Origin: Paenibacillus sp.
Lineage (GTDB): Bacteria; Bacillota; Bacilli; Paenibacillales; YIM-B00363
Direction of reading: 5' to 3'
DNA: 64,000 nucleotides
NCBI RefSeq assembly: GCF_031177825.1
Contig: NZ_JAPSKE010000002.1
Coordinates: 186,001-250,000 of the forward strand
The translations under genes were made by a program, and so were the position numbers. Numbering within the stretch: the first letter of the stretch is position 1; each line of letters begins with the position of its first letter. Below, in pieces: positions 14,986 through 24,396 of the stretch. The notes under the pieces were generated by a model that made no database searches, was not told where the DNA came from, and worked only from the letters and a program-made list of their open reading frames with translations.

Positions 14986-15031
14986 AACAAAGACAACGGC
15001 CGGGAGAGGTATCCCGGCCGTTGTCTTTGTT
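14986..15031. terminator. Bidirectional hairpin between serA and the glycosidase-like gene
   Basis: Perfect 20-base inverted repeat (begins AACAAAGACAACGG) with a 6-base loop between two convergent genes. T-rich on both flanks but without a long T-run, so it probably ends both transcripts. Confidence 0.75.
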
Positions 15032-15061: not shown

Positions 15062-17419
15062 TCACTCCGCCGCGCGCACGATGTCAGGCTCGCCTCGGGT
15101 GAAAAACGTTACCTCGACGGTAGGCTTCGGCTCCCCAGAAAATCTGCAGCTGAACGAGATCGTCTGTCCGCCGCTCCTCCATGTCGGCGGCTCCGTTGCG
15201 GCCGCGACGGATCGCAGCAGGTTCCAGTTGCGATCGTATACTTTGCCGATTCCGTCGCCGTCGCAGACGAGGTACTCGCCGACGGCGATCTCCGTTTCGA
15301 AGGCGAGATACTGGCCGTGCAACTGGAACGAGGGGCGGCGAATGCAGGCGTCCGCGGCGCCGGAAGCGGACGAAACCTTCAGCGAGAAGCGCAGCGCCTG
15401 CGCGCCGAACCGGTTGTAGAACGCCCAATCGGCTCCCCCGGGCTGCCCCGGCTGCAGCTCTTCCGGGCTGCAGACGAACCCGCCGGCGACGTCGACCTCA
15501 TACAAGCTCCATCGATTCGGATCGATCGGCTCGAGATGCCAGTCGCTCTTAGGATCCTGCATGCGCGCTTGCTGCTCCGTCGTGAACGCCTTCATGCGCC
15601 TGGCGCGCTCCCATTCGCGAACCGCGGAGAGCAGCGCTTCGACGTTGCCGTTGCGGCGCAGCACCGCCAAGTCTGCGACCAACGCGAAGCCCGCGTCGAA
15701 GCCGGCCGCCTTGGACAACACCCATTCGATCTCGTCCATCGTCGTCGCCTCGAATGCATTCGAGGCGGATCGGACGAGGAACCAACCCAGCATCCGAGGG
15801 ATGAAGTTGCGCGCAAAATAACGCTGGTTATGCAGACGCCACTGGAGCTGCCCTTCCCGGGTTGCCGCCCCCCACGGCTCTCCCCAGTTAAAGCGCGTAT
15901 GCACATGCCACAAGAAATTCGGCACCACGATGCTGGCGTCGTTGATGACTTCGCGGTCCCATCCGTCGAAGCATCGCTTTACGAACCGGCTGGCCGCGTA
16001 ATCCTCGTGCCCGGTCGCATATACCCCCTCAAGGCCGTCGAAGGAAATTTGGCGCAAGCCTGTATTTCGGAAGAGCTCCGCCAAGCGGTCGCCATACTCG
16101 TCCTGAAGGGCGAGGTCCGGGAAGAAAACGTCGTACGGATGGTCCCACAGTCGGCCTACGTCCATGCCGGCGGCGTGAGCGGCGGCCGTCGTGCCGTTCG
16201 CCCCCCGCTTACACCCGAGCAGCGTCCAAGGAGGAGAATCGGATACCGCTTCGTATTCGATCAACTCCCCGCCGACGACGACCGTACGCCGATACAAGCT
16301 CAATCGGAACGGAACCGGATCATCCACCGTGATCTCGGCGTCTTCCGCGCCGACCGGCGCCGTTAGGCGAGCCGAACCCGCCCGTTGCAACCGAGGGTCG
16401 GGAACCGGAGTGACGAACGGATCGTTCAACGAGGTGAAATTCGTCAACGTATGGACGCCGAGATAGACGCCTTCCCGCTCCGCCAGCTCCACGCATGACC
16501 TCATGCCTTGATCCCCGTTCGGGAACGACGAAGGGTTCAGCTCGAAGTGGCCCCAATTGTTGAACGGTTCGGGATGGTACACATAGCGCAGCCCGGCTTG
16601 CTTCGCATAACCGACCGCTTCGCCGATCGTCGATTCCGAGAAATCCGAAATGAGGTATGACTGATTCGCCGCCGGCGACGTCTTCGCCCACGCCCCATCG
16701 ATCGTGGGATGCGGCAACCCCTCTCCCAGCTCGATCGTCTCGAGCGTATCGAGCACGCGGTCGACCGGACAACCGAACAACGCGATCCGGGAGCCTTCGA
16801 GCTCGGCGTCGAACCCGGATAGCGGTGCAACGAAAATATCGGACTGCCCCCACACCGCGCGCCGCTCGGCGCGGGTTCGGTTCCGAACGTAGGCCTGAAG
16901 CAGGCTGCCGCCTTCCGCCGTCGGCCAAGCCGCGCTAACGGAGTAATCCATCTTCGCGTCGGCATACGCCGCGACCGGTCCCGCTGGGACGTCGACCGGA
17001 TGACCGCCGATCGTCTTCTCGTTTAACGTCTGGATGCCGATCGCGTATTCGCCGTCATGGACGATGCCCACGGATTCGCCGATGGAGGCCGAGAGCGTCG
17101 TCGCATAAGGTCCCCATAGCAAAACGGAGGGCGCGGGCCCGGTAATGCGCTTGACCTCGAACGTGAGGTAGAGGGGATGCTCTTCCACGCTCACCTCAAT
17201 CTGTAGGCCGCTCTCCTTGAATTCGAGCGCGATCATGCCGGCGCCTGTCCGGCGGAAGCCGGACGGCGCTTCCGTCGCGCCGTTCGTCCGAACGCGGACG
17301 ATGGGCGACTTCAGACGGCCGGATGCGAATTCCCGGCCCGTCTTCGAGCAACGGAGGCCGATAAGGTTACCGATGCGGTCGAACTCCACTTCGAAGTGCT
17401 CCGTACGCAGTCGATGCAT
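15062..17419 (-). CDS. Putative glycoside hydrolase-like protein, undescribed family
   Basis: 785 residues, no signal peptide, so cytosolic. Three parts are visible: an N-terminal beta-sandwich-like domain (about 1-220), a probable TIM barrel (about 235-610), and a C-terminal beta domain (about 630-785). The barrel is interrupted at about 350-425 by a module with LIEYEAVSD and CKRGANGTTAAAHAAG, a pattern I associate with phage tail-fibre repeats. Candidate catalytic acids are D461/E464 in ISFDGLEG and E514 in WGEPWG. It is last in an operon with a solute-binding protein and two sugar-type permeases, so it probably cleaves the imported saccharide. I cannot assign a CAZy family. Confidence 0.75.
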   Translation of the reverse strand: MHRLRTEHFEVEFDRIGNLIGLRCSKTGREFASGRLKSPIVRVRTNGATEAPSGFRRTGAGMIALEFKESGLQIEVSVEEHPLYLTFEVKRITGPAPSVLLWGPYATTLSASIGESVGIVHDGEYAIGIQTLNEKTIGGHPVDVPAGPVAAYADAKMDYSVSAAWPTAEGGSLLQAYVRNRTRAERRAVWGQSDIFVAPLSGFDAELEGSRIALFGCPVDRVLDTLETIELGEGLPHPTIDGAWAKTSPAANQSYLISDFSESTIGEAVGYAKQAGLRYVYHPEPFNNWGHFELNPSSFPNGDQGMRSCVELAEREGVYLGVHTLTNFTSLNDPFVTPVPDPRLQRAGSARLTAPVGAEDAEITVDDPVPFRLSLYRRTVVVGGELIEYEAVSDSPPWTLLGCKRGANGTTAAAHAAGMDVGRLWDHPYDVFFPDLALQDEYGDRLAELFRNTGLRQISFDGLEGVYATGHEDYAASRFVKRCFDGWDREVINDASIVVPNFLWHVHTRFNWGEPWGAATREGQLQWRLHNQRYFARNFIPRMLGWFLVRSASNAFEATTMDEIEWVLSKAAGFDAGFALVADLAVLRRNGNVEALLSAVREWERARRMKAFTTEQQARMQDPKSDWHLEPIDPNRWSLYEVDVAGGFVCSPEELQPGQPGGADWAFYNRFGAQALRFSLKVSSASGAADACIRRPSFQLHGQYLAFETEIAVGEYLVCDGDGIGKVYDRNWNLLRSVAAATEPPTWRSGGQTISFSCRFSGEPKPTVEVTFFTRGEPDIVRAAE

Positions 17420-17450
17420 GTTTATTTAGCTCCCAAAAGTTAGTTTCTGT

Positions 17451-19082
17451 CTATTCGCGGCTTTCTTCGTAAATACGCTGCGCCTCTTCCATAACAAGGT
17501 CTCCGCCCATCTTCTTCCATTCGTCGACGAATCGGTCGAAGTCGTCGAGCGACTTGCGCCCCGTGATGAAGTCGATAAAGGTTTGCAGTGTAAACTGCTC
17601 CAATTTATCTTGGTACTCGTTGTAGACGGGTTTGTTATACGGCGCCAAAATATCGATCACCCTCGTGCCTTTCGCCCGCGTCTCCTTCGCCAATTCGCGC
17701 AAGTCGGTGTCCGACGTATAGGAGGTTTGGAAGTCGTAATCGTTGAAGGAGCCCGCCATCGAGTATCCGCCGATTCCTTCGCGTTTGCGCACTTGCTCGT
17801 CGTCGTAAGGAGCGATGAACTCAACGATGCCCTTCTCGTTCAACTTCCACATTTTATCCTTCTCGCCGAAGTTCAGCTTTTCGTAAATTTCCGGGTCGAA
17901 TTGGGACGCCTCGAAAACTTGTAAATACTTGACAAGCTTCTCTTGGTCTTGCTCCAGCTGCTTGCCGAACATGACGCCGGAGGCGAAGCTCGGGTGGTAT
18001 TGCGAGATACCATACGCCCCTTCCGGTCCTTTGACGCCGCCGACAGTTTCCCAAGCGAACTCGGGATTCGCCGCTTTCAATTTATCGTACCATTGCTCGC
18101 CGCCAAGGAACGCGCTGCCGGGCAGGAACGACCACCAGTAATATTCGACCGCTCCCGCTTTCGCCGTCAGCACCTTATCTTCTACGTTATTTCCCTTGTT
18201 GACGACGAATTCGGGGTCGATCAATTCAAGATCATGCCAACGCTTCAATACTTCGAGCGCTTGTTTCGCGCCGGGTTCGATCTCCCCGCGGACAATCTTG
18301 CCGTCCTTCTCCCGGAAGATGTTCGGATAAGCGTCGAATGCGCCGAACACGGAGCTGAACAACGATTCGATATTACTTGCGGAGCCTGTCATGCCGTACG
18401 TATCCTTCTGCCCGTTCCCGTCCGGATCGTCGTTCCGGAAAGCGGTAAGCGCCGCTTCCATCTCTTCCAACGTTTCCGGCGCCTTCTCGATGCCTACATT
18501 CTTCAGCCAGTCGCCGCGGAAGCCAAGCTGCAGACCGTCGATGCCGATGTCCCATAGTACGGGGAGTGCGTAAATTTTGCCGTCTCTTCTTACGTACTGA
18601 TAAGGATCGTCGCCGAGGAACCGCTTCAGCCATTCCACGTACTTCGGCATATGTTGTTCGATGAGCTCCTGCGGAATTTCCGCCGCTACGCCCTGCTGTA
18701 AAAACTTGTCGTAATCCGGGAAGGACGGCTCCTTCCACCAATCCGGAATTTCGCCGGAAGCGATCTGAAGATTGAGCGTCTCCGTGAACGTATCCCTGGC
18801 GGCGGCGACGAACTCCGTTTCGATGCCGAACTTCTCTTCGATCGCCCGAACCCCGTACGAATCCGTGTTCGTCAATCCGTCTAAATTCCAAAATTTCAGC
18901 ACGGGCTTTTCCGCCGATTTTGCGGCTTCTTGCTTCGCAGACGGATCGACGCCTTGGTCGGTCGTCTCCGTTCCTTCCGGCTCGTTCGAGCCGTTCCCTC
19001 CGCCAGAGCTGCAAGCGGCTAATAAGACGATCAATGCAAGAGAACTTATCGCCGTCCGCCAAAGCATCCTTTTCTTTTTCAA
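17451..19082 (-). CDS. Extracellular solute-binding lipoprotein (YtcQ/LplA type)
   Basis: Substrate-binding component of a carbohydrate ABC importer. About 543 residues: a basic start, signal peptide and lipobox LAAC, a Gly/Ser/Asn-Glu linker, then a large family 1 binding domain (starting KPVLKFWNLDG) of the long Paenibacillus type. The start is uncertain: TTG at 19082 has AGAGGA 9 bases upstream; ATG at 19091 and TTG at 19100 are in frame but poorly spaced. It follows the permease gene and precedes the glycosidase-like gene. Ligand unknown; LplA/YtcQ relatives bind oligosaccharides such as rhamnogalacturonan or mannan fragments. Confidence 0.92.
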   Translation of the reverse strand: MKKKRMLWRTAISSLALIVLLAACSSGGGNGSNEPEGTETTDQGVDPSAKQEAAKSAEKPVLKFWNLDGLTNTDSYGVRAIEEKFGIETEFVAAARDTFTETLNLQIASGEIPDWWKEPSFPDYDKFLQQGVAAEIPQELIEQHMPKYVEWLKRFLGDDPYQYVRRDGKIYALPVLWDIGIDGLQLGFRGDWLKNVGIEKAPETLEEMEAALTAFRNDDPDGNGQKDTYGMTGSASNIESLFSSVFGAFDAYPNIFREKDGKIVRGEIEPGAKQALEVLKRWHDLELIDPEFVVNKGNNVEDKVLTAKAGAVEYYWWSFLPGSAFLGGEQWYDKLKAANPEFAWETVGGVKGPEGAYGISQYHPSFASGVMFGKQLEQDQEKLVKYLQVFEASQFDPEIYEKLNFGEKDKMWKLNEKGIVEFIAPYDDEQVRKREGIGGYSMAGSFNDYDFQTSYTSDTDLRELAKETRAKGTRVIDILAPYNKPVYNEYQDKLEQFTLQTFIDFITGRKSLDDFDRFVDEWKKMGGDLVMEEAQRIYEESRE

Positions 19083-19124
19083 CCCTCTCATTCCTCTCAA
19101 GTCTTTTTTTCTATTAAAAGGGGG

Positions 19125-20021
19125 TTACCCCTTAATAGCGCCGATCATAACGCCCTTCACGAAATACTTCTGAATGAACGGGTAAACGAGAAGCATCGGT
19201 ATGATCGAAAACATGATGACGGTCGCTTGCAGTTGGCGTCCCGAAAACACCGTCTTCGTCCCCAAGTTTTGGATCACGGAATTGATGTCGGTCATATTGT
19301 TCTGAATAATAATTTTACGCAACACGACTTGAAGCACTTGCTTGTTCGGATCCGTAATATAGATCATGCTGTCGAACCATGCGTTCCAATGGCCGACGCC
19401 GACCCACAACGCTATCGTCGCGAGCACCGGCTTCGATAACGGCAAGGCGATTCGCGTAAAAATTCGAGCATACCCCGCCCCGTCCACCCGGGCGGATTCC
19501 TCCAGTTCCTCCGGCAGCGCGCGGAAGAAATTGCGCATAATCAACACGTTAAAGGCGCTGATCATGCCCGGCAGGACGAGGGCCCACACCGAATTGAACA
19601 AGCCTAGTTCTCGAATCAACAAGTAACTCGGAATCGTACCGCCGCTGAAGAGCATCGTGAACAGAATGACCGCCGTGAAGCCGCGGTTGAACGGCAAATC
19701 CGCCTTCGCGAGCGGGTACGCGGTCAGCGCGGTGAATACAAGCGATAAGACGACGCCGATGCCGGTGCGAAGAAGCGTATTCGCGTATCCCGACCACAGC
19801 GCATCGAAGCGCAGCGCGAGTCTATAGCTTTCGAAAGTCAGTTCGGCGGGAAATAAGATGAATCCCGATTCGTAAGCCGAGCTGTTCACCCCCGCGCCGT
19901 CCAGCGAGATGACGACCTGCGTCCAGAACGGATAGAGAGTCGTAAGCGCCACGATCGCGAGTACGAAATACAGAACGGCGTCGATCGCCTTATCCCCCGG
20001 CGACTTCTTGATGTTGATCAT
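19125..20021 (-). CDS. Carbohydrate ABC transporter permease (YtcP/AraQ type)
   Basis: One of two membrane subunits of the importer. 298 residues, about six transmembrane segments, with the EAA loop that contacts the ATPase visible as EESARVDGAGYARIF followed by ALPLSKP. ATG at 20021 with AGGAG 8 bases upstream; the ATG two codons earlier overlaps the ribosome binding site. No ATPase gene is in the cassette; such importers usually borrow a shared MsmX-type ATPase. Confidence 0.94.
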   Translation of the reverse strand: MINIKKSPGDKAIDAVLYFVLAIVALTTLYPFWTQVVISLDGAGVNSSAYESGFILFPAELTFESYRLALRFDALWSGYANTLLRTGIGVVLSLVFTALTAYPLAKADLPFNRGFTAVILFTMLFSGGTIPSYLLIRELGLFNSVWALVLPGMISAFNVLIMRNFFRALPEELEESARVDGAGYARIFTRIALPLSKPVLATIALWVGVGHWNAWFDSMIYITDPNKQVLQVVLRKIIIQNNMTDINSVIQNLGTKTVFSGRQLQATVIMFSIIPMLLVYPFIQKYFVKGVMIGAIKG

Positions 20022-20066
20022 GACCATCTCTCCTCATGCTGTGATTCCCTGCGTTGCGATCCGGGC

Positions 20067-21023
20067 CTACCACAAGGCGTGATCCTTCCCGCCGATGACC
20101 TTCACGATGCGATTGACGACGAGGATTAACAACAGCGCGACAGCCGATTTAAACAAACCGACGGCGGTAGCGTAGCTATAATCCATCTCGACGAGGCCCC
20201 TTCGATACACATACGTATCGATGATGTCCGACACGTTCATCACCCTAGGGTTATACATGTTGAAAATTTGGTCGAAGCCGGCGTCCAATATTCCGGACAT
20301 CGAAAGAATCAACATGATCGCGATGACGGGCGCGAGCATCGGGATGGAGATGAAGAACATACGCTTGAATCGTCCGGCTCCGTCGATGACGGCGGCTTCG
20401 TACAGCTGAGGGTCGATGTTCGAGATCGCCGCGAAGTAAATGATGGACCCCCACCCGAAACCTTGGAAGATGCTCGTGACCACCAAGATCGAACGGAAAT
20501 ATCGATCGTCCGCGAGGAACAGCATCGGGTCCGCGCCGAACCATTGCAACATTGCATTGATCGGGCCGTCCATCGAGAAGATCGTGAAGAAGATTCCCGC
20601 CATAATGACCCACGAAATGAAATGCGGGAGGTACGACACGGTCTGAACCGCCTTCTTGAATTTCGCGCTCGATACCTCGCTTAGCAAGAGCGCGAATAAA
20701 ATCGGTACCGGGAAACCGAAAACGAGCTTGTAGAAACTAATAACGAGCGTGTTCTTAAGGACCGTGTAAAAATACGGATCCGAGAACACCTTTTCAAACC
20801 AATGGAACCCGATCCATGGACTGTTCAAAATACCTTGCGTAATTTTGAAATCCTTGAACGCCAGTACGACCCCGTACATTGGGAGATAGTGAAAAACACC
20901 GTAGTACATCATCCCCGGCACGAGCATGAGCAACAAAACGCGATACTTTTTCCAACGCCTCCACCGATCCGCCCCGAATCGAAGGCGTCCGCTCGAACGG
21001 ACCGGCGCGGCCGCTCGGTTCAT
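20067..21023 (-). CDS. lplB: Carbohydrate ABC transporter permease (LplB type)
   Basis: Second membrane subunit of the importer. 318 residues: basic N-terminal tail (1-27), then about six membrane segments. The EAA loop reads EAAVIDGAGRFKRMF followed by ISIPML. The family's GIFHYLPMYG-type first loop appears as GVFHYLPMYG. ATG at 21023 with AGGGGG 8 bases upstream. First gene of the transport operon; a 122-base gap separates it from yesM, with a TATAGT that could be a -10. Confidence 0.94.
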   Translation of the reverse strand: MNRAAAPVRSSGRLRFGADRWRRWKKYRVLLLMLVPGMMYYGVFHYLPMYGVVLAFKDFKITQGILNSPWIGFHWFEKVFSDPYFYTVLKNTLVISFYKLVFGFPVPILFALLLSEVSSAKFKKAVQTVSYLPHFISWVIMAGIFFTIFSMDGPINAMLQWFGADPMLFLADDRYFRSILVVTSIFQGFGWGSIIYFAAISNIDPQLYEAAVIDGAGRFKRMFFISIPMLAPVIAIMLILSMSGILDAGFDQIFNMYNPRVMNVSDIIDTYVYRRGLVEMDYSYATAVGLFKSAVALLLILVVNRIVKVIGGKDHALW

Positions 21024-21145
21024 GACTCCCGCCCCCTATCCATGTATTCGCTTTCATTTCTTGAATTAACTATACCAAGCTCCGAGGGTAATGAAATTAT
21101 CAAACATTTTCGAAATGATTCGATTTCTTACGTAGTTTGCCCCGC

Positions 21146-22858
21146 TTACTTATCGGGACGGCCGTTGGCAGGTACGGCGATCCTCATTCTCGTTCCTCTC
21201 CCCGGCTCGCTTTCGATTCGCAACGCGTACTTCGTCCCGAAATACAACTTCAGCCGCTTGTTCACATTCTTCAACCCGTATCCGACCGATTGTTCCGAGA
21301 GTAGACTCTCGACCGTTTCTTCGTCCATTCCGGGACCGTTGTCTTCGACGATGAACTCGATGGCCGGTCCGACCGTCGCCGCCGCCACGCGCAGCTTCCC
21401 TCTTCCGCCTTCCTTCTTCTGGATCCCGTGCATGACGGCGTTCTCGACGATCGGCTGGAGCGTCATATTCAGCATCGTGCCGGAGTACACGCTTTCATCG
21501 ATCTCGTAGTCCACATCGAAGCCGTCGTCGTTCATGATCAACAGAATTTCCAGATACGACTTTACCGTTTCAAGTTCGTCCTTCGCGGGAATGAGATGAT
21601 CGCCTTTATTCAAGGTTGTCCGATAAAACTTCGACATGGCTGTCACGACGTGACTAATTAGCGTCTGCCCGCTTTTCACGGCCTCCCAATTGATGAAAGA
21701 CAACGTATTATACAGGAAATGCGGTTTTATTTGGGACTGGAGCGCCTTCAGCTCCGCTTCTTGTTGAATGATCTTGCTGGCGTAAGACTCTCGAATCAAC
21801 TCGTTTAACCGAAACACCATGTTGTCGAATCGGTTAATCAGCTCTCCGATTTCGTCTTTGGACGCGCTCTGTACGCGAAGCTGCAGGTCCCCGTTTTCCA
21901 CTCGCTTCATAAAGCTGTTCAGTTGGTGGATACGGCGAATCATCGTACGGGAAAAGACGGAAATGATGAACAGCAGGAAGATGATGCAAGACGCGATAAC
22001 GATCAATGTCGCATTCAGGATCGAGCCGGCATTCGGCGTTACGCGCTCCGCCGGCACGAAGCAATGCAGCGTCCAGCCGGTTTCTGAAATCGTCTTCTTA
22101 ACGACGAAATACTTGATATCTTCTACCGTCACGGTACTGTCCGTCGGATTGACCCGCTTCGTTACTTCGGTCGCGATTTCCCGCAAGTCGTTCCGATTCG
22201 CATACAGCAGCTTGTTCGAATCGTCCGTGATCGCCACGCCGTAACCGTCCATTAAGTCGGTAACGCCGAAGAACAGACCGCGATGATGAATCCGGATTAC
22301 CGCCGCGTTGATGTAAGGGTCGGAGAAGAAGCGGGGAAAGGTGCGGACGAACAGCAATTCCTCCCCATCGAAAACCCAATGCTCCCCTTCCCCCGCGATC
22401 GCCTCTTCGTACCACGGCTCGCCCTTCGCCCGCTCGGCGGACACGACGGCTTCTCCATATTCCGGAACGTCGCTCTGCGTGTAAAACTTGATATCCCGGA
22501 TATTCGAGTCGACCGTCCTCATCATGGTAAAGTACGGCGCCAGGTATTCGTTCAAATCCCGCGACAAGTTCACCAAGTCGAGGTAATCGTTCGCGACGAT
22601 CCGTTGGAAGGTTCGATTGTATACGATCGATTGAAGGGCCCGGTTATACTGCTCGATCGAACCCCCGATGCTCTGCGCCAGCGTCGTCGCATCGCGTTCC
22701 ACGCTTTGTTCCGCTTGGTAATCCAACAGCTCCCTCGATTGCCCGTAGGCGTACATGCCCAGCACGAAGATCGGTACGATAATTACGGTCAGATAGGACA
22801 GGAACAGCTTCTGGTTCAACCGCAGCCGGTTGAATAGGAGATCGATCGAACGCTTCAT
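21146..22858 (-). CDS. Sensor histidine kinase, YesM family
   Basis: Membrane sensor of a two-component pair controlling sugar uptake genes. 570 residues: TM1 (about 17-38), a large extracellular sensing domain (about 40-280), TM2 (about 282-304), HAMP (about 302-354), and a His_kinase domain with the phospho-acceptor H380 in SQIKPHFLYN, then an HATPase domain with ENAVMHG and EDNGPGMD. GTG/ATG start overlaps the response regulator stop by 4 bases (22855-22858), so the two are co-translated. The signal is probably the solute handled by the adjacent importer, by analogy with YesMN, LytST-like and YtrAB-type neighbours; this is inference. Confidence 0.94.
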   Translation of the reverse strand: MKRSIDLLFNRLRLNQKLFLSYLTVIIVPIFVLGMYAYGQSRELLDYQAEQSVERDATTLAQSIGGSIEQYNRALQSIVYNRTFQRIVANDYLDLVNLSRDLNEYLAPYFTMMRTVDSNIRDIKFYTQSDVPEYGEAVVSAERAKGEPWYEEAIAGEGEHWVFDGEELLFVRTFPRFFSDPYINAAVIRIHHRGLFFGVTDLMDGYGVAITDDSNKLLYANRNDLREIATEVTKRVNPTDSTVTVEDIKYFVVKKTISETGWTLHCFVPAERVTPNAGSILNATLIVIASCIIFLLFIISVFSRTMIRRIHQLNSFMKRVENGDLQLRVQSASKDEIGELINRFDNMVFRLNELIRESYASKIIQQEAELKALQSQIKPHFLYNTLSFINWEAVKSGQTLISHVVTAMSKFYRTTLNKGDHLIPAKDELETVKSYLEILLIMNDDGFDVDYEIDESVYSGTMLNMTLQPIVENAVMHGIQKKEGGRGKLRVAAATVGPAIEFIVEDNGPGMDEETVESLLSEQSVGYGLKNVNKRLKLYFGTKYALRIESEPGRGTRMRIAVPANGRPDK

Positions 22859-24396
22859 CTGCCCATCTCCTCCCGGTACTGCGAGGGGGATACCCCATAA
22901 TGCGTCTTGAATAGCGAGCTGAAATACGGGAAGTTCGGGTAACCGACGGATTGACCGATGGAAACGATCTTCTGATTCGTCGTCGTCAATAGCTGACGCG
23001 CCCGCTCCATGCGGAACATCGTAATATATTTGTTGATGCTGATGCCCGTTTGTTTTTTGAACAGATAACTCAAGTAGCTTGGGCTTAGGTACACTCTCTC
23101 GGCCAGGAGCTCTAACGACAAATCGGATCCGTATTCGTTCGCGATGATATCGATGACGTCCTCGATCGCCTTACGCTTCGAATCCGCCGACTGCTCCCGA
23201 AGCTCTCCGCCTTGGTCGAACAAGGAAAGCATATATTGTTTCAGCGCTTCCAAGGTCTCCGCTCTGTAGATGGCCTCCAGACTCTTTTCGAAACTATAAA
23301 TCTCCTTCTTGATCGCCGCGCCGTACATGGCCTTCGCGATCTCCATGCATAGGTGCTTTACGTAAACGACGGAGTAGGTTCCTCCCGCCTGAAGAAGATC
23401 CATCACCTGCTCGAACTGCACCTTCGCAACCTCGTATTGCTTCTTCTGAAGCTGCAGCGCGATGCCGGACAACGCCTCTTCGGCCGAAACGCGTCTCTCC
23501 TCGTTTTCCCGCCGCGGCGGCCGGGCGAGGAGGACCGTACCTTCCCGGAAAAAAAACTTCCGCTCCAACACCGCCTCCAACTCGAAGAAGGCATGCGGGA
23601 ACTGCGATCCGTCGCTTACCTCTCCGCCGACGACGATCGTCATCTCCCGATCGTACACTTCCTTGAACCACCGAACGAGCCTTTCGCCGAAGGCTAACGT
23701 CTCCTCCTCCCCGACGGAGGCATTCATCAACAGTAAGCTTTGCAGGGGATGCAGGTGCACGAGCTCGAAGGTTCCCGGCGCCAACTCCGACAGCTCCTCC
23801 TCCACTTTACGGTCGAACAGATCGAAGAAGCGGCTGCCCGTATCCAGCAAGACGAGCCGCACGCTGCGCCCGCCGTAGTGCGTTATCGCCGGCAGGTACG
23901 GCGTCCCGGCCGCATCCGGGCTTTCGCCGTGCAGCATCCGGGCGACGATCGTTTGCTTTTCGAAATGGACGCCCCTCCAATACGCCTCCTCGAGCTTCTT
24001 GTACTGATCTTTCGCTTGCCGTTCTTCCTCGCACAACTGGATGACCTGCGACATCACCTTTAAAAACTCGTTCACCTCGACAGGCTTCAGGATGTACCGA
24101 ATCGCTCTCAGGTCGATAGCCCGCTGCGCGTATTCGAACTCTCCGTAAGCGCTCATCATAATGACCTTCATCGATGGATCGTACGCTTTCGCGCGTTGAG
24201 CCAGCTCCAGGCCGTCCATGCCGTGCATGCGGATATCCGTGAGCAGAATATCCACTCCGCCTTCCTCGATTCTCGCGATCGCCTTCTCCCCGCTGTCCGC
24301 TTCCCCCGCTTCGAGCGGCAGATCGTATTTCGCAATGAGAAATTTGACGCCTTCGCGTTCGAAACTGTCGTCATCGACGACGAGAATGTTTAACAT
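22855..24396 (-). CDS. Response regulator, YesN family with AraC-type DNA-binding domain
   Basis: 513 residues: receiver domain (1-about 120) with phospho-acceptor D54 in LLTDIRM and K104 in YILKPV, a long middle region (about 130-400), and a C-terminal AraC HTH domain (about 410-510) with the typical LSYLFKKQTGISINKYI segment. It very likely activates the lplB-permease-binding protein-hydrolase operon beside it. Start ATG at 24396 has only a weak ribosome binding site (GCGGG). The upstream region carries the resE terminator and an IS-end-like scar. Confidence 0.94.
   Translation of the reverse strand: MLNILVVDDDSFEREGVKFLIAKYDLPLEAGEADSGEKAIARIEEGGVDILLTDIRMHGMDGLELAQRAKAYDPSMKVIMMSAYGEFEYAQRAIDLRAIRYILKPVEVNEFLKVMSQVIQLCEEERQAKDQYKKLEEAYWRGVHFEKQTIVARMLHGESPDAAGTPYLPAITHYGGRSVRLVLLDTGSRFFDLFDRKVEEELSELAPGTFELVHLHPLQSLLLMNASVGEEETLAFGERLVRWFKEVYDREMTIVVGGEVSDGSQFPHAFFELEAVLERKFFFREGTVLLARPPRRENEERRVSAEEALSGIALQLQKKQYEVAKVQFEQVMDLLQAGGTYSVVYVKHLCMEIAKAMYGAAIKKEIYSFEKSLEAIYRAETLEALKQYMLSLFDQGGELREQSADSKRKAIEDVIDIIANEYGSDLSLELLAERVYLSPSYLSYLFKKQTGISINKYITMFRMERARQLLTTTNQKIVSIGQSVGYPNFPYFSSLFKTHYGVSPSQYREEMGR

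Follow-up and report, generated by a model that had tools for sequence, protein, structure and literature searches.

In Bacillus subtilis, the YesNM and LplB-YtcP-YtcQ systems for oligosaccharide import combine a two-component system with two permeases and a solute-binding protein (SBP), and have no ATPase of their own. PMC5730181 provides a precedent for MsmX serving such importers. The cassette described here, which lies within a stretch of 64,000 nucleotides of Paenibacillus sp. (the window), shares this composition, but differs from the B. subtilis systems in its terminal enzyme, a protein of 785 amino acids (aa), which comes from an unnamed family, rather than from a known GH or PL family.

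Organization of the Cassette

A sequence-only reading of the window had proposed that six open reading frames, co-directional on the minus strand between positions 15,062 and 24,396, form a sense-import-degrade cassette without its own ATPase. All six were found in this place and orientation (Table 1), their role in sensing and import agrees with the domains, the synteny, and the promoter footprint, and no ATPase of the cassette appears in either the list of open reading frames or the Pfam scan. In order from 24,396 to 15,062, the intergenic gaps are −4, 122, 39, 24, and 31 bp, with ResE/ResD-like genes flanking the cassette upstream, and a convergent serA gene downstream. Of the 80 loci fetched, 25 are from Paenibacillaceae; at least 17 of these retain the order kinase-LplB-YtcP-SBP-enzyme, and three others have it with a single glycosidase gene inserted. 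Recurrence on this scale puts the layout far beyond chance.

Table 1. Features of the cassette and its borders, by position in the window.
Feature	Position	Strand	Evidence
Perfect hairpin separating the 785-aa gene from convergent serA	14987..15030	.	Visible in the sequence itself
785-aa protein with a predicted GH36-like barrel, unclassified and lacking a signal peptide	15062..17419	-	AlphaFold2 model
E514 codon, NWGEPW motif, proposed acid/base	15878..15880	-	Invariant
E464 codon, acid next to the proposed nucleophile	16028..16030	-	Invariant
D461 codon, proposed nucleophile	16037..16039	-	Invariant; ends barrel strand 457-461 (DSSP on the model)
Solute-binding lipoprotein, 549 aa, lipobox LLAAC	17451..19100	-	Pfam SBP_bac_8 7.1e-07
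YtcP-type ABC permease	19125..20027	-	Pfam BPD_transp_1 8.5e-11
LplB-type ABC permease	20067..21023	-	Pfam BPD_transp_1 2e-10
cre-like site ATGAAAGCGAATACA, putative catabolite control	21043..21057	-	Same-place cre-like matches in L022, L023, L030, L033, L035
Putative -10 box TATAGT	21069..21074	-	Position conserved among aligned loci
Conserved footprint upstream of lplB	21093..21132	-	Present in most aligned loci
YesM-type sensor kinase (dCache-like, HAMP, His_kinase, HATPase)	21146..22858	-	Pfam His_kinase 7.4e-22, HATPase_c 1.1e-12
YesN-type response regulator, C-terminal AraC HTH	22855..24396	-	Pfam Response_reg 4.7e-25, HTH_18 6e-22

The region upstream of lplB contains a conserved footprint, which reads CGTAA.AAA.YGAA.YATTTC...ATTTGATAATT in the aligned loci. 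Its core pattern matches the window at this position alone, with zero mismatches (zero matches expected by chance), and has no other perfect match anywhere in the window's genome. The footprint is likely to be the target of the cassette's own YesN-type response regulator, and provides a ready test case for regulation of this type. A TATAGT-like -10 box recurs upstream of lplB in the aligned loci, often together with a cre-like site, whose sequence in the window fits the cre consensus. The hairpin downstream of the cassette would likely act as a bidirectional terminator. Pattern scans for sigma-70 promoters and terminators returned matches no more common than expected by chance.

Four ATPases of the UgpC/MsmX type score above the NCBIfam cut-off in the window's genome, all of them outside the cassette; three adjoin permease genes, and the fourth is an orphan, located beside hprK (G000:C39:4357-5463, L204). 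Given the presence of this orphan, an MsmX-type ATPase could serve the cassette, and it is possible that the importer is powered by a shared ATPase of this type encoded elsewhere.

A Widespread Family Unnamed in Pfam, NCBIfam, and the PDB

The 785-aa protein has no match in Pfam, NCBIfam, or the PDB sequences, and it is within these collections that its earlier description as unclassified holds. The PDB searches with the single protein and with its profile recovered only weak Vipp1 and ribosomal matches, which were rejected as noise, and no description of the family was found in the open literature.

A scan of genome contigs confirmed 289 loci that encode relatives of the protein, 80 of which were fetched. 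By the record titles of these 80 loci, homologues with 37–80% identity are found in at least eight phyla, with representatives in the Bacillota, Bacteroidota, Verrucomicrobiota, Planctomycetota, Armatimonadota, Poribacteria, Zixibacteria, Hydrogenedentota, and Omnitrophota. The family is widespread, often resides in sugar-degrading loci, and is nameless in the three collections. Only about 20 of the 344 sampled Paenibacillaceae genomes have a full-length family gene, a rarity which makes it an accessory function in this group. Signal peptides or lipoboxes, read by eye, are present on Gram-negative members and absent from the Paenibacillaceae members, which fits import of the substrate before its attack. 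Remoter secreted relatives, with approximately 28–34% identity, also occur in Paenibacillaceae and Embleya.

In a Bacillota-wide search of evenly drawn genomes, the sole full-length match was the window's own gene, and weak matches to an insert domain were also recovered. This beta insert (residues 345-425, window ~16145-16387) matches weakly within Bacillota proteins of ~360-1340 aa that are otherwise unrelated (L103-L108, L171, L172), as if it were a mobile domain.

Predicted Fold and Catalytic Residues

The whole protein was modeled with AlphaFold2 from an alignment of 52 sequences (pLDDT 93.6, pTM 0.90), which predicts a mutarotase-like sandwich (residues 1-235), a barrel (~240-620), within which the beta insert lies, and a C-terminal sandwich (625-785). 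Foldseek placed the GH36 enzyme FpGalNase (1.5e-15), GH101 (2.5e-15), and GH129 (5e-13) at the top for the whole model, followed by other GH36 structures. The barrel was also modeled alone (pLDDT 93.0), and its Foldseek E-values alone are not discriminating, because pyruvate kinase and other unrelated TIM barrels match it too. In the VIA comparison of the barrel, GH36 occupies the first 24 rows, with Z of 22.0-19.2, rmsd near 3.6 Å, and ~295 residues aligned (best, 1zy9: Z 22.0, rmsd 3.6 Å, 301 residues), followed by GH27 (18.7), GH31 (18.2), and GH13 (17.8), an ordering that sets GH36 modestly apart from the other barrels.

Profiles give no such assignment. The protein has no match to the Pfam Melibiase model (PF02065) of GH36 at E up to 1, nor to PF12905 (GH101) or PF11308 (GH129) in the Pfam scan, and the hhalign probabilities are 0.8% or less for GH36, 22% at best for GH101, and ~1% for GH129. 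Filing the protein under any of these families by profile was therefore ruled out, as the similarity is non-significant. In one alignment with a GH36 profile, below the threshold, strands 2-4 stay in register, and the alignment ends with D461 facing the Asp of the KWD motif. The DDGW, KxD nucleophile, and CxGGGxR motifs, which are present in the sampled members of the GH36 set built in this analysis, are absent from the family, whose strands 2, 4, and 5 carry YHP.PF, SFD, and NDAS, respectively.

The sequence-only reading had named D461, E464, and E514 as acids of a TIM-barrel-like center, and had matched the protein to no known CAZy family. The three acids are present and invariant in every correctly aligned homologue, and the predicted structure, together with this invariance, supports the barrel with catalytic acids; the fold search takes the protein from no clan to a predicted barrel that is GH36-like and resembles clan GH-D. 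D461, E464, and W512-G513-E514 are invariant across both near and remote members. In the model, D461 stands at the end of the fourth barrel strand (457-461), and E514, 53 residues further on, lies in a loop ahead of the helix at 525. From this position and spacing, and although DSSP assigns no strand at E514 and pLDDT falls to ~76 in part of residues 510-530, we infer that D461 may be the nucleophile, and E514 the acid/base. The equivalent pair of FpGalNase, D463 and D532, is 69 residues apart (PMC11762096), and the spacing in the GH36 set built here, measured from motif positions, is 70 residues. D494 was ruled out as the acid/base, being Gly in 12 of the 106 family members.

Neighboring Genes and the Likely Substrate

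Genes next to the family gene in other genomes offer clues to its substrate. A GH101-like gene with intact D/E motifs lies directly downstream in four loci (L030, L032, L046, L100), and a GH101 domain starts 1.2–1.4 kb past the family gene in five further genomes (G569, G576, G582, G595, G612). GH36-related proteins are also among the neighbors, as are GH29, GH95, GH20, GH123, GH38, GH2, GH31, GH116, DUF2961, and sulfatases. The window itself contains no glycosidase of these neighbor types, and its genome has no GH101 match. While the set of glycosidases is mixed, the neighbors lean toward galacto-type sugars. The nearest PDB sequences to the SBP are 5gx8/5gub (E 2.3e-21) and the alginate binders AlgQ1/AlgQ2, and the latter kinship would suggest acidic sugars.

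A number of individual loci provide further observations. At L021:6727-8935, all that is left of the family gene is a C-terminal piece of 167 aa, which adjoins a GH4 alpha-galactosidase gene, and a related genome (L017/L036) retains the intact cassette, so that operon loss is likely in L021. In Arenibacter (L096:5790-15752, with L083 similar), the family gene is found beside a GH36-related 690-aa protein without a Pfam match, with an IlvD/EDD-type dehydratase, an SDR, and a sodium symporter nearby, which suggests an oxidative sugar pathway. At L026:10421-12673 and L043:10421-12673, a 751-aa protein, whose similarity to GH127/GH88 is sub-threshold at most, overlaps the stop of the family gene, and is possibly another unclassified glycosidase.

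Proposed Function and Alternatives

We consider it reasonably probable that the cassette senses, imports, and trims an oligosaccharide. YesM/YesN would sense the oligosaccharide, the lipoprotein and LplB/YtcP would import it with an ATPase encoded elsewhere, and the 785-aa protein, as a retaining exo-alpha-glycosidase of an unnamed, GH-D-like family, would trim it in the cytosol, with D461, which ends barrel strand 4, as the nucleophile, and E514 as the acid/base. The sugar removed would most likely be galacto-configured (Gal, GalNAc, Fuc, or a relative), in a -1 subsite that presumably differs from the canonical galactose one.

One alternative concerns the identity of the sugar. The DDGW and KxD motifs hold galactose in GH36, and the family has neither. 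The same fold and mechanism might serve a non-galacto sugar—uronic, deoxy, or gluco, from a plant, algal, or bacterial exopolysaccharide—with the neighboring galactosidases as coincidental company. The AlgQ1/AlgQ2 relatives of the SBP and the mixed neighbors, including GH31, GH2, GH116, DUF2961, and sulfatase, agree with this, but the nearest folds are GH36 galactosidases and galactosaminidases, GH101 and GH129 also rank high for the whole model, and GH101-like, GH4 alpha-galactosidase, and GH36-like genes recur next to the family gene, which leaves a non-galacto sugar unlikely. A departure from hydrolysis itself, in which a transglycosidase, a dehydratase/lyase, or a carbohydrate-modifying enzyme has been built on a glycosidase-like barrel, might explain why the family has a further invariant acid, E464, and a pocket that differs from that of GH36, and has a precedent in GH154, reported as a dehydratase rather than a hydrolase (PMC12269599). 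Two invariant carboxylates, a GH36-like barrel, and a mutarotase-like sandwich are nonetheless the usual arrangement of a glycosidase, and the neighboring enzymes are chiefly hydrolases; a non-hydrolase is thus improbable, and hydrolysis by the 785-aa protein is likely.

The remaining alternative concerns novelty rather than biology, which would be as in the galacto-configured exo-glycosidase account. Pfam models are often missing for recent GH families, and the protein may already belong to a CAZy family that is absent so far from Pfam, NCBIfam, and the PDB. The lack of matches in these three collections, and of any description in the open papers, speaks against this, and we regard it as rather unlikely. 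That the protein founds a new GH family, represented in at least eight bacterial phyla, with a GH36-like barrel, a rebuilt -1 subsite, a Glu acid/base, and an alpha-glycoside beyond those of the known galactosidases, has in our view slightly better than an even prospect. The activity is directly testable, given the invariant acids, the confident model, and the self-contained importer, and the family may be of use as a tool for linkages of the alpha-galactoside or alpha-GalNAc type.

Comparison with Known Glycosidases

The solved GH101 enzymes are much longer than the 785-aa protein, whose family shares with GH101 and GH129 an Asp/Glu carboxylate pair and a GVH motif at strand 3. The arrangement of an N-terminal sandwich, a barrel, and a C-terminal beta domain is that of the GH36 enzymes TmGalA (1zy9/6gwf) and FpGalNase (8x1b, 9ayu), against which the barrel gives VIA Z of 22.0-21.0. 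The protein differs from GH36 in its extra beta insert, and in the proposed acid/base of its family, which would be Glu, rather than Asp.
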